A program made the translations under genes and the position numbers. Below are positions 2,654 to 6,051 of a stretch of 8,129 nucleotides of DNA, in pieces (the first letter of the stretch is position 1; every line of letters starts with the position of its first letter). The stretch covers positions 1-8,129 of the forward strand of contig JASHVC010000081.1 of assembly GCA_030039655.1 (NCBI GenBank), given 5' to 3'. The stretch is from Xanthobacteraceae bacterium (lineage in GTDB: Bacteria > Pseudomonadota > Alphaproteobacteria > Rhizobiales > Xanthobacteraceae). Below the pieces are notes generated by a model that worked only from the letters and a program-made list of their open reading frames with translations, was not told the origin of the DNA and made no database searches.

Positions 2654-3451
2654 TTACCACCACCTATGAAAATGATGCAGTGGGCCGTGCCCGGACCCGA
2701 CATTGAGCCGGTCCGCCGCCGCGATGGCGGCGGTCACGTAGGCCTTGGCTTCACGCACCGCACCTTGCAGCGGAAGTCCCTTGGCGAGCCCTGCGGCAAT
2801 AGCGGAAGACAGAGTGCAGCCGGTGCCGTGCGTGTTTTTGGTCGCGATGCGCGGCGCGGCAAACCGTTCAAAGCCATTGGCGTCGACGAGCAGGTCGACG
2901 CTTTCCTTACCGCCGGCGTGGCCGCCTTTTATCAGGACCGTCTCGGCGCCGAGTGCGCGCAGCTTTTCCGCCTGCACGCGCATGTCCACTTCGTCCCGAG
3001 CCATCGTTACTTCGAGCAGCGCCGCCGCTTCAAACAAATTGGGGGTGAACACGCCGACGCGACCGATCAGCTTGCGCAACGCATCCATCGCGTCCGCGCG
3101 CAAAAGATCGGCGCCCGTGCTCGCGACCATGACCGGATCGAGCACCACATTGCGCGCGCGATGACGATCCAAGCCAGTCGCCACCGCTTCGATCACAGTC
3201 GCGTTCGCCAGCATGCCGATCTTTACCGCGGCGACACCGAGGTCGGAAAACACGGCGTCCATCTGTGCCGCGATGAAGTCCGCAGGCACGTCATGAATGG
3301 CAAAAACACCTTTGGTGTTTTGCGCGGTGAGCGCGGTCACAACCGACGCGCCGTAAACGCCGAGCGCCGCGAAGGTCTTTAGATCGGCTTGAATGCCCGC
3401 GCCGGCGCTGGAGTCTGAGCCGGCAATGGTCAGCGCGACGGGGACGCTCAT
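2654..3451 (-). CDS. thiD: Bifunctional hydroxymethylpyrimidine kinase / phosphomethylpyrimidine kinase
   Basis: ThiD phosphorylates 4-amino-5-hydroxymethyl-2-methylpyrimidine twice with ATP, giving the pyrophosphate that ThiE uses to make thiamine phosphate. The 265 residues match the family's usual size and ribokinase fold. GSDSSAGAGIQADLKTF (11-27) is the substrate-side signature. VKIGML (76-81), DPVMVASTGADLL (105-117), TPNLFEAAAL (136-145) and VLIKGGH (172-178) follow in order. THGTGCTLSSAIAAGLA (207-223) is the anion-hole/ATP motif, with C212 in the position of the conserved cysteine. The C-terminal GHGPLHHFH is also typical. The ATG at 3449-3451 is preceded by an AAGGT ribosome site (3457-3461). 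The gene is the last in the operon and starts 61 bases after the TIR gene's stop. That spacing is wider than at the upstream junctions. Confidence 0.96.
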   Translation of the reverse strand: MSVPVALTIAGSDSSAGAGIQADLKTFAALGVYGASVVTALTAQNTKGVFAIHDVPADFIAAQMDAVFSDLGVAAVKIGMLANATVIEAVATGLDRHRARNVVLDPVMVASTGADLLRADAMDALRKLIGRVGVFTPNLFEAAALLEVTMARDEVDMRVQAEKLRALGAETVLIKGGHAGGKESVDLLVDANGFERFAAPRIATKNTHGTGCTLSSAIAAGLAKGLPLQGAVREAKAYVTAAIAAADRLNVGSGHGPLHHFHRWW

Positions 3452-3512
3452 GGGCTACCTTGCGGCTTCACAAGCTCCCCGCACAGGACAAGCAAAGAGC
3501 CGTAGCGAGGTC

Positions 3513-4454
3513 TTACTGCCAATTTCGCAGCTGCCTCAGTCTCGTAATATAGGCGGTGCGGAGGCAGGCGTCGTCTTTTTTGCAGGACTTTCGCCGCTCG
3601 AGCCAAGCACTTTCATCGGCCGCGAGCGCGGCTTGCTTGTCCTTGTCAAGGTGCGCGCGCAAGACCGAATAGGCCACCGTGAGACTGCGATCGAGTTCCG
3701 CAAGCTCGGAATTCCGGCATATCTCCTGCTCGTCGGCGTCCACCGCCGAATAGCAATCGAAGCCCGGAGGTTTTCCGCTGCGGAAGAACACGATAACAAT
3801 CGCAACGGTCAGCGCCACGCCGGCGAGTAGCCCCACTCCACCGAAAAGCACCGGCCGAGAGAATAGTGAACGCCGCGGCGCTGCCATGGCGATCACGCCT
3901 TGTGGCGCCGCGCTGTTCGCGAGCGGCGCCACTGGAGCCTCGGCCGCCTTAGCCGCAGCGCTTTCCTGTCGGCGCGGCGGTGCCATGCCTTTTGCGGCAA
4001 AAATCTGATCCAGTGCGCGAGTCAAACTCTCAATGTGATGATCGAAATCCCGGCCGCCATCCACTTGCACCGCGTGGCGAAAGGCAAAATCCTTCAGCGT
4101 AGCCGGAAGTTCACTGGGCTCCGGCATTGTCATACCGCTGACCAAGACCGGAATGACCGGGATATCGCGCTTGAGCGCCATCTCCACTTCAACGCGGACC
4201 GGATCACTCTCTTTGTCCATTCTGCTTTCGACACCGTCGCCACGGCCCAGCCATCGCGGCCCGACGATCACCAGCAGCACATCGGTCGCCGTGAGTGCAT
4301 CGGCGATTTGGGCGCGAAAATCGATGCCGGGCTGAATGCTGTCGATGTCGCGGAATACCGTGTCCCTTCCATATTGCTGCGCGAGGCGGTCGAATATGCG
4401 CCCGGTGATGTCCTGCGAGTCCGATCTGCGATATGAGATCGCAATCTTCGCCAT
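3513..4454 (-). CDS. TIR domain - transmembrane helix - LprI-like (DUF1311) protein
   Basis: This is a 313-residue protein with three parts. Residues 3-150 are a TIR domain: IAISYRRSD (4-12), the loop FRDIDSIQPGIDF (34-46), DVLLVIVGPRWLG (58-70), then RVEVEMALKRDIPVIPVL (87-104). Aligned by eye with SARM1, E89 falls where the NADase glutamate lies. Residues 155-195 are a proline/alanine-rich linker. Residues 201-224 form one hydrophobic helix preceded by RRSLFSR, which by the positive-inside rule puts the TIR domain in the cytoplasm. Residues 231-313 resemble the lysozyme-inhibitor LprI family (DUF1311): FDCYSAVDADEQEIC, ELAELDRSL, DESAWLERRKSC and ACLRTAYITRLRQL, with cysteines 234, 246, 291 and 297 suited to periplasmic disulphides. 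The gene begins six bases after thiE, and its TGAGGA ribosome site overlaps the thiE stop, so it is translated within the thi operon. Domain calls are firm. NAD cleavage and envelope sensing are inference, and no link to thiamine chemistry can be read from the protein. Confidence 0.88.
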   Translation of the reverse strand: MAKIAISYRRSDSQDITGRIFDRLAQQYGRDTVFRDIDSIQPGIDFRAQIADALTATDVLLVIVGPRWLGRGDGVESRMDKESDPVRVEVEMALKRDIPVIPVLVSGMTMPEPSELPATLKDFAFRHAVQVDGGRDFDHHIESLTRALDQIFAAKGMAPPRRQESAAAKAAEAPVAPLANSAAPQGVIAMAAPRRSLFSRPVLFGGVGLLAGVALTVAIVIVFFRSGKPPGFDCYSAVDADEQEICRNSELAELDRSLTVAYSVLRAHLDKDKQAALAADESAWLERRKSCKKDDACLRTAYITRLRQLRNWQ

Positions 4455-4463
4455 GTGTCCTCA
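4455..4463 (-). promoter_or_regulatory. thiE stop / TIR gene ribosome site overlap
   Basis: On the minus strand the thiE stop TGA (4463-4461) is the first half of TGAGGA, a good Shine-Dalgarno match, and the TIR gene's ATG follows six bases after the stop (4454-4452). This arrangement implies translational coupling. Confidence 0.7.
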
Positions 4464-5132
4464 CGCGCCTCGTTTGGCAAGCATGGCGTCGACGACTTGC
4501 CGCAGTAAGCGGGCCGCGGCGGTTGGATCGGACGCCAGCGAGAGCGCCGAAATGACGGCAACACCGTCGGCACCGGCAGCGATCACCGGTGCGGCGTTGC
4601 TCGCATCGATGCCGGCGATGCCGCAGACCGGCAGCTCTTTGCGCTCCCTTTGCGCGCGGCTGCGCAGCACGCCGACGATCCGGGTCAAGCCATCAGGGCC
4701 GATCGGCGCGTTCTTCTGCTGCTTGGACATCGTCGCATAGACGCCGCCGGAGCCGACGTAGTCGATCAGCGCGACTGGTGCTGCCTCCGCCTCGCTCACG
4801 TTTTTGACCGAAAGGCCGATGATGGCACCGGAGCCGAGGAGACGCCGCGCGTCCTCGACCTTCATATCGTCCTGGCCAAGATGCACGCCGTCAGCGCCCA
4901 CGGCGAGCGCCACGTCTACGCGATCGTTGACAACAAATGGCACGGAGAACGGCGCCAGCGCCGTCTTGATGGCGCGCGCTTCATCGACCATGGCGCGCGT
5001 TTCGCTCAGCTTGTCGCGCAATTGCACGAGCGTAGCGCCGCCCTCAGCGCACAACCGCGCCAACTCGGCAAGATCGCGGCCGCCGGCGCGCTCGGGATCC
5101 ACGATAGCATTGAGGCGGAGGTCAATCTTCAT
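4461..5132 (-). CDS. thiE: Thiamine phosphate synthase
   Basis: ThiE couples hydroxymethylpyrimidine pyrophosphate with thiazole phosphate to give thiamine phosphate and pyrophosphate, in the cytoplasm. The protein is a 223-residue TIM barrel, of normal length. Visible landmarks are LVQLRDK (35-41; Q37, R39 and K41 bind pyrimidine and pyrophosphate), FVVNDRVDVALAVGADGVHL (66-85, with the N-D pair) and GQDDM (86-90). GLSVKN (106-111), GSGGVYATMSKQQKNAPIG (127-145, the pyrophosphate loop) and CGIAGI (170-175) followed by GADGVAVISAL complete the set. The frame is open further upstream to 5339, but the ATG at 5132 is chosen because it begins at the first barrel strand, has an AAGGTG ribosome site, and shares one base with the thiM stop. 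The pyrophosphate loop differs from the E. coli form, but a similar loop is usual, as far as I remember, in alphaproteobacterial ThiE. Confidence 0.95.
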   Translation of the reverse strand: MKIDLRLNAIVDPERAGGRDLAELARLCAEGGATLVQLRDKLSETRAMVDEARAIKTALAPFSVPFVVNDRVDVALAVGADGVHLGQDDMKVEDARRLLGSGAIIGLSVKNVSEAEAAPVALIDYVGSGGVYATMSKQQKNAPIGPDGLTRIVGVLRSRAQRERKELPVCGIAGIDASNAAPVIAAGADGVAVISALSLASDPTAAARLLRQVVDAMLAKRGA

Positions 5133-5134
5133 CA
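5130..5134 (-). promoter_or_regulatory. TGATG overlap of thiM stop and thiE start
   Basis: The minus strand reads TGATG: the TGA of thiM and the ATG of thiE share the A at 5132. An AAGGTG ribosome site lies just upstream inside thiM. This is a standard sign of coupled translation. Confidence 0.85.
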
Positions 5135-5899
5135 CGGCACCTTCGCGCGCGCGCGCAACGCGGCGCGATCGAGGCTGTGCAGAGCATCGAGAATCCAGCT
5201 GGCAAACCGGCCAGGCCCGTGCGCCCACTCCGCGGCCACTTCGCCAGCGACCCCGAGCGCGATCAGCGCCGCATTGGTGGCAAGCCACGCGTCGGGTTCC
5301 ACCGCAAGTGCGGCGCACACCAGAGCCGAACCCGCACACCCCATTCCCGTGACGAGGCTCATGAGCGGATCGCCGTTGGCGATGGCAACGCGGCGTGCGC
5401 CATCGGTCACGATGTCGGCGTTGCCGGTCAGCGCTACCACGGTACTGGAGGCTTTCGCGGCCCGGGACGCCGCTTCGGCGGCGGGATCGCCACCGAACAG
5501 CGGCACGAACTCCGTCGCGTTGAGCCGCACGACTGTTGGCCGATGCGCCAAGAGCTCACGGCAAAATTGCGCGCGGCCCGGCGAGCGTTCGATAAAGACC
5601 GGGTCGAGCACCCAAGGCACGTGCGCCATTTGCGCGGCGCCCAGCGCGACACTGATCGCGCTGCGCCGTTCCGCATCGAAGGTCCCGAGGTTGACCAACA
5701 GCGCGTGGGCGCTGGCAACAAAGCTGCCGATCTCTTCGGGCGAGATCGTCATCGAGGGCACTGCGCCGGCCGCCAGCAGCATGTTCGCCGTGTAGTTCTG
5801 GGCCACCGTGTTGGTAATGCAATGCACCCGCGGCGCGCGATCGCGGATGCGCGCCAGCACGTCGGCGGCGATATCGGCGAGCTCGACCGGTGCATGCAT
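5132..5899 (-). CDS. thiM: Hydroxyethylthiazole kinase
   Basis: ThiM phosphorylates 4-methyl-5-hydroxyethylthiazole with ATP and so salvages the thiazole half of thiamine. The protein has 255 residues, slightly short but within the family's range, with a ribokinase-like fold. Key segments are HCITNTVAQNYTANMLLAAG (26-45, the thiazole-binding N-T-V/N-x-x-A-N signature), VPSM (47-50), LLVNLGT (67-73), VLDPVF (97-102), LNATEF (126-131) and ALTGNADIVTDG (156-167). VTGMGCAGSAL (183-193) carries the conserved cysteine C188 and anion hole. The ATG at 5897-5899 has an AGGAAG ribosome site (5909-5914). It is the first gene of the thiM-thiE-TIR-thiD operon. The absence of thiC or thiG nearby points to salvage rather than new synthesis. 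No TPP riboswitch precedes it; an inverted-repeat element does. Confidence 0.95.
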   Translation of the reverse strand: MHAPVELADIAADVLARIRDRAPRVHCITNTVAQNYTANMLLAAGAVPSMTISPEEIGSFVASAHALLVNLGTFDAERRSAISVALGAAQMAHVPWVLDPVFIERSPGRAQFCRELLAHRPTVVRLNATEFVPLFGGDPAAEAASRAAKASSTVVALTGNADIVTDGARRVAIANGDPLMSLVTGMGCAGSALVCAALAVEPDAWLATNAALIALGVAGEVAAEWAHGPGRFASWILDALHSLDRAALRARAKVP

Positions 5900-5908
5900 T
5901 TCTAGGTT

Positions 5909-5914
5909 CTTCCT
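5909..5914 (-). promoter_or_regulatory. thiM ribosome binding site inside a possible small hairpin
   Basis: AGGAAG on the minus strand lies nine bases before the thiM ATG. It sits in the loop between TCTAGG and CCTAGA (positions 5925-5920 and 5906-5901), which could pair. The first of these arms is also part of the large palindrome upstream, so two foldings exclude each other. Confidence 0.5.
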
Positions 5915-5919
5915 GGTAC

Positions 5920-6022
5920 CCTAGACCATGATCCGCTCTGACTTGATCGGATCATGGTCTAGGATTTTTCGAGGGCATGATCTTTTCGGAAAACCGGCAT
6001 CCACTTTTCCGGATCATGCTCT
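5920..6022. repeat. Composite palindromic intergenic repeat of rhizobial type, two hairpins
   Basis: Hairpin 1 is a perfect 16-base inverted repeat, CCTAGACCATGATCCG (5920-5935) and CGGATCATGGTCTAGG (5948-5963), with a 12-base loop. Hairpin 2 pairs GCATGATC (5975-5982) with GATCATGC (6012-6019) and CGGAAAA (5987-5993) with TTTTCCG (6005-6011), with a four-base T bulge and an 11-base loop. The right arms are near-identical direct repeats: CGGATCATGGTCTA (5948-5961) against CGGATCATGCTCTA (6010-6023), one mismatch in 14. Sequence of this kind is, as far as I remember, scattered in many copies through Rhizobiales genomes. It fills most of the divergent promoter region between thiM and the RAM-domain gene, so their promoters lie within or beside it. 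Short reading frames inside it are not genes. Confidence 0.8.
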
Positions 6023-6051
6023 AACCACGATACTACGTTTGGAGCGGTCCT

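Follow-up and report, generated by a model that had tools for sequence, protein, structure and literature searches.

A predicted transmembrane TIR–LprI protein encoded between thiE and thiD in a thiamine salvage operon

TIR enzymes of immunity cut NAD, and a TIR gene lying among genes for vitamin B1 salvage raises the question of whether its chemistry serves thiamine metabolism or whether the operon only hosts it. The locus was analysed within a DNA stretch of 8,129 nucleotides (the window), and its features are listed in Table 1. The minus-strand order proposed in an earlier sequence-only reading, thiM, thiE, TIR gene and thiD, agrees with the ORF coordinates. By annotation thiM, thiE and thiD form a thiamine salvage operon on a single strand, since the three enzymes exceed curated cut-offs; for ThiM this holds for one model of two, with 226.7 bits against NF006830 (cut-off 180) and 179.2 bits against TIGR00694, below its cut-off of 256.4. 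In E. coli K-12, thiM and thiD overlap and are co-directional, and both genes also share one strand in the window. However, the E. coli thiM–thiD pair has no thiE in between and no TIR gene within the 6 kb examined. A promoter scan of the region found none. Terminator-like sites on both strands numbered 7 against 3.3 ± 1.9 expected, including a minus-strand hairpin within the TIR gene (3819–3801), and the scan placed no site at the thiE/TIR or TIR/thiD junction.

Table 1. Features of the thiamine salvage operon and of the TIR–LprI protein encoded in it.
Feature	Position	Strand	Evidence
thiM, hydroxyethylthiazole kinase, 255 aa, first gene of the operon	5132–5899	−	NF006830; PF02110
thiM/thiE stop-start overlap TGATG, one base in common	5130–5134	−	sequence
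thiE, thiamine phosphate synthase, 223 aa	4461–5132	−	TIGR00693, 182.4 bits (cut-off 145.1); PF02581
thiE/TIR junction: TGA, six bases, ATG	4452–4463	−	sequence
TIR–TM–LprI protein gene, 313 aa	3513–4454	−	ORF, Pfam, structure prediction
TIR domain, residues 1–155, predicted cytoplasmic, SARM1-like fold	3990–4454	−	Pfam, predicted structure
Glu89 codon, candidate catalytic glutamate	4188–4190	−	alignment
Low-complexity linker, residues 156–203, weakly conserved	3846–3989	−	identity, pLDDT
Membrane helix, residues 204–224	3783–3845	−	hydropathy, predicted helix
LprI/DUF1311-like domain, residues 230–312, predicted periplasmic	3519–3767	−	Pfam, cysteines
TIR/thiD spacer, 61 bases	3452–3512	−	sequence
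thiD, HMP/HMP-P kinase, 265 aa, last gene of the operon	2654–3451	−	TIGR00097, 326 bits (cut-off 204.95)

The one-base overlap of thiM and thiE described in that reading is present, with TGATG spanning the stop and the start, and so is the six-base gap between thiE and the TIR gene with a ribosome site over the thiE stop. The thiE stop TGA occupies 4463–4461, the TIR ATG begins at 4454, and a Shine-Dalgarno-like GAGGA at 4462–4458 overlaps the stop and ends 3 bases from the ATG. Because this distance is short for independent initiation, re-initiation after thiE is the likelier route to the TIR start, and translational coupling is suggested by the spacing. At the other end, thiD has its own well-placed AAGG (3461–3458), six bases upstream of its ATG, and with the long spacer this junction is not tightly coupled. 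The tight spacing of the TIR gene is therefore on the thiE side only. The view of the gene as a coupled operon member holds in that it is operon-internal and close behind thiE, but co-translation with thiD is weaker than had been supposed. The spacer, the membrane helix and the LprI-like domain were absent from the earlier description.

The TIR ORF (4454–3513) is intact without an internal stop, and a homologue search, in which 1936 of 7998 scored candidates passed E ≤ 0.001, indicates that it is no chance frame. TIR_2 (PF13676) matched residues 4–127 with 45.8 bits (cut-off 28), and the predicted structure of the domain has a TIR fold with an active NADase as its nearest structure. A sequence search of the PDB gave no match for the protein or for an 86-row profile. 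Glu89 is invariant in 86 of 86 aligned proteins; we take it to be the equivalent of SARM1 E642 on the basis of the local motif, which makes it a candidate catalytic residue. Beyond the TIR domain, pLDDT falls below 50 across residues 165–210. The hydropathy maximum at 206–224 and a predicted helix at 205–222, of low confidence, point to one membrane span. LprI (PF07007) matched residues 239–293 with 21.9 bits (cut-off 22). Ten other proteins were scanned, nine from the homologue search with the window's protein and P0247 from another; six matched PF07007 at 25.3–32.5 bits and P0002 at 21.2 bits, and no match was given by P0085 and P0077, which both end before the domain, or by P0247, which has another C-terminus. 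The four C-terminal cysteines are conserved (C234 and C246 in 73/73, C291 in 72/73, C297 in 71/73), and 71 of 72 TIR–LprI proteins have no cysteine within the first 160 residues. Modelled alone from a single sequence, the LprI domain formed three helices with a mean pLDDT of 84.1, and Foldseek found no match among solved structures at E ≤ 0.001. Against the 18 closest relatives, the TIR and LprI domains average 88% and 89% identity and the membrane helix 69%, whereas the linker averages 50% (residues 156–198, which have 13% identity to middle-distance relatives). Both ends of the protein thus appear to be constrained. Hydropathy, the arginines before the helix and the distribution of cysteines suggest an N-in/C-out topology, with TIR inside and LprI outside. 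By this predicted layout the protein is a one-component transmembrane receptor and not a thiamine enzyme.

Its parts can be compared with several known systems. The TIR domain has the predicted fold of the TIR of SARM1, the animal NADase. SARM1 is autoinhibited by its ARM domain and octameric through its SAM domains, whereas the window's protein is predicted to cross the membrane once and carries an LprI-like domain. Thoeris ThsB and ThcB4 have an N-terminal TIR segment in common with it (residues 3–69; PADLOC ThsB 33.1 bits, a model with no cut-off; NCBIfam ThcB4 38.8 bits against an equivalog cut-off of 220), but the membrane helix and LprI domain are extra. A score so far below the cut-off does not identify the protein as Thoeris, and a Pfam scan of the nine genes in the 8.1-kb window gave no ThsA-type partner. 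Animal Toll-like and IL-1 receptors combine an outer sensor, a single membrane helix and a cytoplasmic TIR, as outlined in PMC8635717. The layout of the window's protein is alike, but its domain order is reversed, the TIR being N-terminal; neither an LRR nor an Ig domain was found in it, and descent is not claimed. The C-terminal domain resembles LprI/DUF1311 proteins such as M. tuberculosis LprI and Salmonella ScwA, as Pfam indicates for six relatives, and its four cysteines are as in ScwA. ScwA is a periplasmic LprI-domain protein with two disulfides that controls peptidoglycan hydrolases and reportedly has no role in lysozyme resistance (PMC7933661). Unlike ScwA, the domain in the window is tethered to a predicted cytoplasmic TIR, and it stays 0.1 bit below the PF07007 cut-off. 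Since ScwA controls peptidoglycan hydrolases and has two disulfides, cell-wall state is a plausible input for the outer domain. The action of ScwA in peptidoglycan homeostasis, together with the fact that no window gene was seen to receive a nucleotide signal, would also suit a catalytically dead TIR that only assembles, in a protein that works through its LprI domain in cell-wall homeostasis; ScwA itself is presumably without a TIR domain. This alternative is improbable given that Glu89 is kept throughout the alignment and that the fold lies nearest to an active NADase.

The doubt that the arrangement might belong to a single strain is answered by two divergent relatives, P0085 and P0077, in which the placement behind thiE recurs. 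Their junctions were deduced on the thiE/TIR side from frame-shifted or over-extended database proteins. P0085 (449 aa) opens as ThiE, shifts frame after about residue 148 and continues into TIR; just ahead of the TIR methionine, reading in a shifted frame gives a fit to VDAMLAKRGA-stop, the end of thiE, with eight bases to the ATG. A true ThiE–TIR fusion was rejected for P0085, because the ThiE half shifts frame and the TIR half does so again near its end; the protein is read as two adjacent genes with frameshifts. The 12-residue extension of P0077 fits, in another frame, AMLAKRGA-stop with seven bases to the ATG. None of 15,000 random 13-residue pieces from the TIR family had a run of nine (maximum eight, in 4 pieces), and the longest run among 18 other extended proteins, some with very short extensions, was five. 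In a second control pool of 20,000 pieces, which included frame-shifted thiE proteins, 6 had a run of at least nine. The gaps of 6, 7 and 8 bases in the window, P0077 and P0085 are read as one kind of junction. In the TIR-domain tree (130 rows out of 135 candidates), P0085 and P0077 belong to a 33-row clade (support 96) and the window to a 41-row group (93), within a 20-row clade of support 98. The placement therefore spans a deep split of the TIR–LprI group. A match of P0325 to thiE (E 1.7e-4, 25% identity) was not credited. In the thiE relatives P0135 and P0239 the ThiE tails matched shifted thiE frames and, weakly, TIR, but both were rejected as further cases because what lies past thiE in them resembles neither TIR nor thiD. 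No credible TIR-to-thiD join was found among 231 TIR proteins, with the best match within thiD at E 0.007 (P0330).

Among the 120 ThiE proteins listed, thiE runs straight into thiD in 29 joined proteins and into TIR in one, P0085; joined database proteins are a biased sample rather than genomes, and they show which gene adjoins thiE, not whether TIR lies elsewhere. The ThiD start is in frame a few residues from the thiE end in 23 of the 29 joins, and it was seen in a shifted frame in six (P0122, P0123, P0191, P0193, P0217 and P0234). The other 90 showed nothing clear, P0188 being ambiguous, and P0236 probably also joins thiE to thiD. In the ThiE tree (120 rows; gaps led to the removal of P0238, which is among the 29 joins), the window and P0085 fall in a seven-row clade (support 93) with five rows in which thiD follows directly, and the most economical history requires two changes. 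The window's nearest ThiE relatives thus have no TIR gene behind thiE. With thiD-direct rows around the window and P0085, the thiE–thiD junction is probably ancestral and the TIR gene probably an inserted accessory cistron. TIR may have been inserted twice, or once with later spread and loss via recombination in the flanking thi genes, and support is too low to choose. In P0175 and P0177, an N-terminal extension of ThiE matches a frame of the window region upstream of thiM, which suggests that in these cases thiM is missing and thiE adjoins a gene from that region. A scan of genome contigs gave 29 stretches that fit a pattern, of which one was confirmed, a cyanobacterial TIR (L003). Of 192 genomes related to G001, 186 have a ThiE match; the matches listed have 37–48% identity, mostly in frames of 340–450 aa that are taken for cyanobacterial ThiE. 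For 39 relatives of G001, no match among those listed spans both the TIR and LprI parts.

The TIR gene had also been described as possibly a stably maintained passenger. Its recurrence in P0085 and P0077 agrees with this, but its presence is patchy, with five of the seven rows in the ThiE clade going directly from thiE to thiD. In the strict form of this idea, the gene comes from a TIR family that is mobile or expanding, is tolerated at its site between thiE and thiD because thiD expression stays unbroken, and holds a position without functional meaning. The patchiness among close ThiE relatives, the many paralogous TIR architectures and the separate ribosome site of thiD behind a 61-base spacer would all be expected. 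The TIR gene also has the lowest third-position GC of the nine genes measured (GC3 0.68, with 0.67 in the TIR-domain part, against 0.74–0.81), which fits an accessory gene. Its relative codon use of 0.886 to the rest is no outlier, with lower values for thiD (0.852) and the AsnC gene (0.818). However, the junction of 6–8 bases behind thiE recurs in three lineages, and the TIR and LprI domains are strongly constrained relative to the linker. The operon contains short repeats only; the phage search gave no match, and nine plasmid records had partial matches, none of them covering 80% of the query. In viral contigs, two loci had a 24-residue match, and none of 29 pattern matches was confirmed. 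We regard a meaningless position as possible but rather unlikely.

The proposal that TIR activity is tied to cofactor supply found no support: thiD directly follows thiE in most of the ThiE clade, the C-terminal half is envelope-like and the C-terminal fusions of the family are varied. A functional link would couple NAD+ chemistry to B1 salvage: TIR might sense how much cofactor is available, or it might act on a precursor of thiamine. The tight spacing behind thiE, recurrent across the deep TIR–LprI split, argues for such a link. SARM1 reportedly has base-exchange activity, which makes a reaction with a heterocycle such as hydroxyethylthiazole conceivable, and on this assumption placement directly behind thiE would pair the enzyme with its precursor. 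An envelope signal might then cause TIR, besides hydrolysing NAD+, to move ADP-ribose from it onto thiamine or a thiamine precursor, giving an adenylated thiazole or thiamine compound as alarm signal or store, but this version is highly speculative and very improbable. Against any link stand the 29 joined proteins in which thiE and thiD occur together without TIR, the envelope type of the outer domain, and the window itself, where no TPP riboswitch or other Rfam thiamine element is listed at E ≤ 5. The open-licence literature gave no description of a TIR gene in a thiamine operon, and in passages of papers with both TIR and thiamine terms these had no connection, occurring in growth media, for a prophage TIR or in a table row. 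A link is therefore unlikely, but if it were true, it would give TIR chemistry a metabolic role.

We favour, with a probability of about 0.5, an envelope-sensing inner-membrane TIR receptor, an accessory defence-like cistron hosted by a housekeeping thi operon, because thiE and thiD join without TIR in the joined relatives, the outer half is of envelope type and the inner half resembles an NAD enzyme. The anatomy, junctions, family and placement come from sequence, the topology, fold and catalytic glutamate are predicted, and we infer the signal, NAD chemistry, outcome and expression level. A flexible linker and one transmembrane helix would connect a SARM1-like cytoplasmic TIR enzyme to a periplasmic domain of LprI type, stabilised by disulfides. 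This outer domain may read an envelope or cell-wall signal, such as lysozyme-like attack, peptidoglycan damage, or phage entry or lysis. The signal would bring the TIR domains together, and the clustered domains might cleave NAD+ or convert it to a nucleotide signal, leading to a growth stop or a triggered response. The window showed neither an effector partner nor a known defence gene. The TIR gene would have been inserted between thiE and thiD of an ancestral thiM–thiE–thiD operon, and stop-start coupling to thiE would provide steady low TIR expression; the protein itself would carry out no thiamine salvage step. If TIR is merely hosted, a real thiamine link still keeps some plausibility, because the gene recurs at one junction on both sides of a deep split in its family. 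If the hosted-receptor reading is true, several lineages of little-known bacteria carry in a vitamin operon a one-component bacterial receptor with a reversed Toll layout, the sensor outside and a SARM1-like TIR inside. Housekeeping operons could then host TIR immune-type enzymes where neighbourhood-based defence searches miss them, and an envelope-sensing TIR family would be open to direct test.

The TIR gene is ordinary as a member of its family and unusual in its genomic address, and the placement is real, recurrent and patchy. Among the best 120 of the 1936 homologues, 18 besides the window's own cover the full protein at 75–86% identity; a few homologues are labelled as Xanthobacteraceae MAGs. 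The matches listed for the same TIR subfamily include Sel1 repeats and FGE-sulfatase, caspase, WD40, PDZ/peptidase, peptidoglycan-binding, patatin and periplasmic-binding domains, and the subfamily thus appears to be combinatorial and receptor-like. LprI-bearing proteins group on the TIR tree with modest support (80–88), and the group also takes in three Sel1 proteins and some truncated rows. The open-licence literature searched gave no enzyme activity, ligand or phenotype for the TIR–LprI family. In P0247 (817 aa), a TIR of the same subfamily is fused to Peripla_BP_6, the family of a stand-alone window gene at 1315–2520, which suggests TIR receptors with ligand-binding outer domains. P0241 and P0240 have two or three TIR-like units per chain, and by eye a caspase-like region appears in the sequence of P0241. 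The genome of L003 has 71 TIR_2 matches, and downstream of this cyanobacterial TIR gene lie, by eye, an unknown gene, an AAA-type ATPase gene and a gene with an FGE-like end. The window's host bacterium is probably soil-dwelling. Between thiM and the AsnC-type gene, REP-like palindromes lie at 5907–6031 (arms 5920–5938/5945–5963, repeat 5941/6003), and the Brucella sRNA CI27 matches weakly in the same interval in Rfam, at 37.7 bits (cut-off 59.8).
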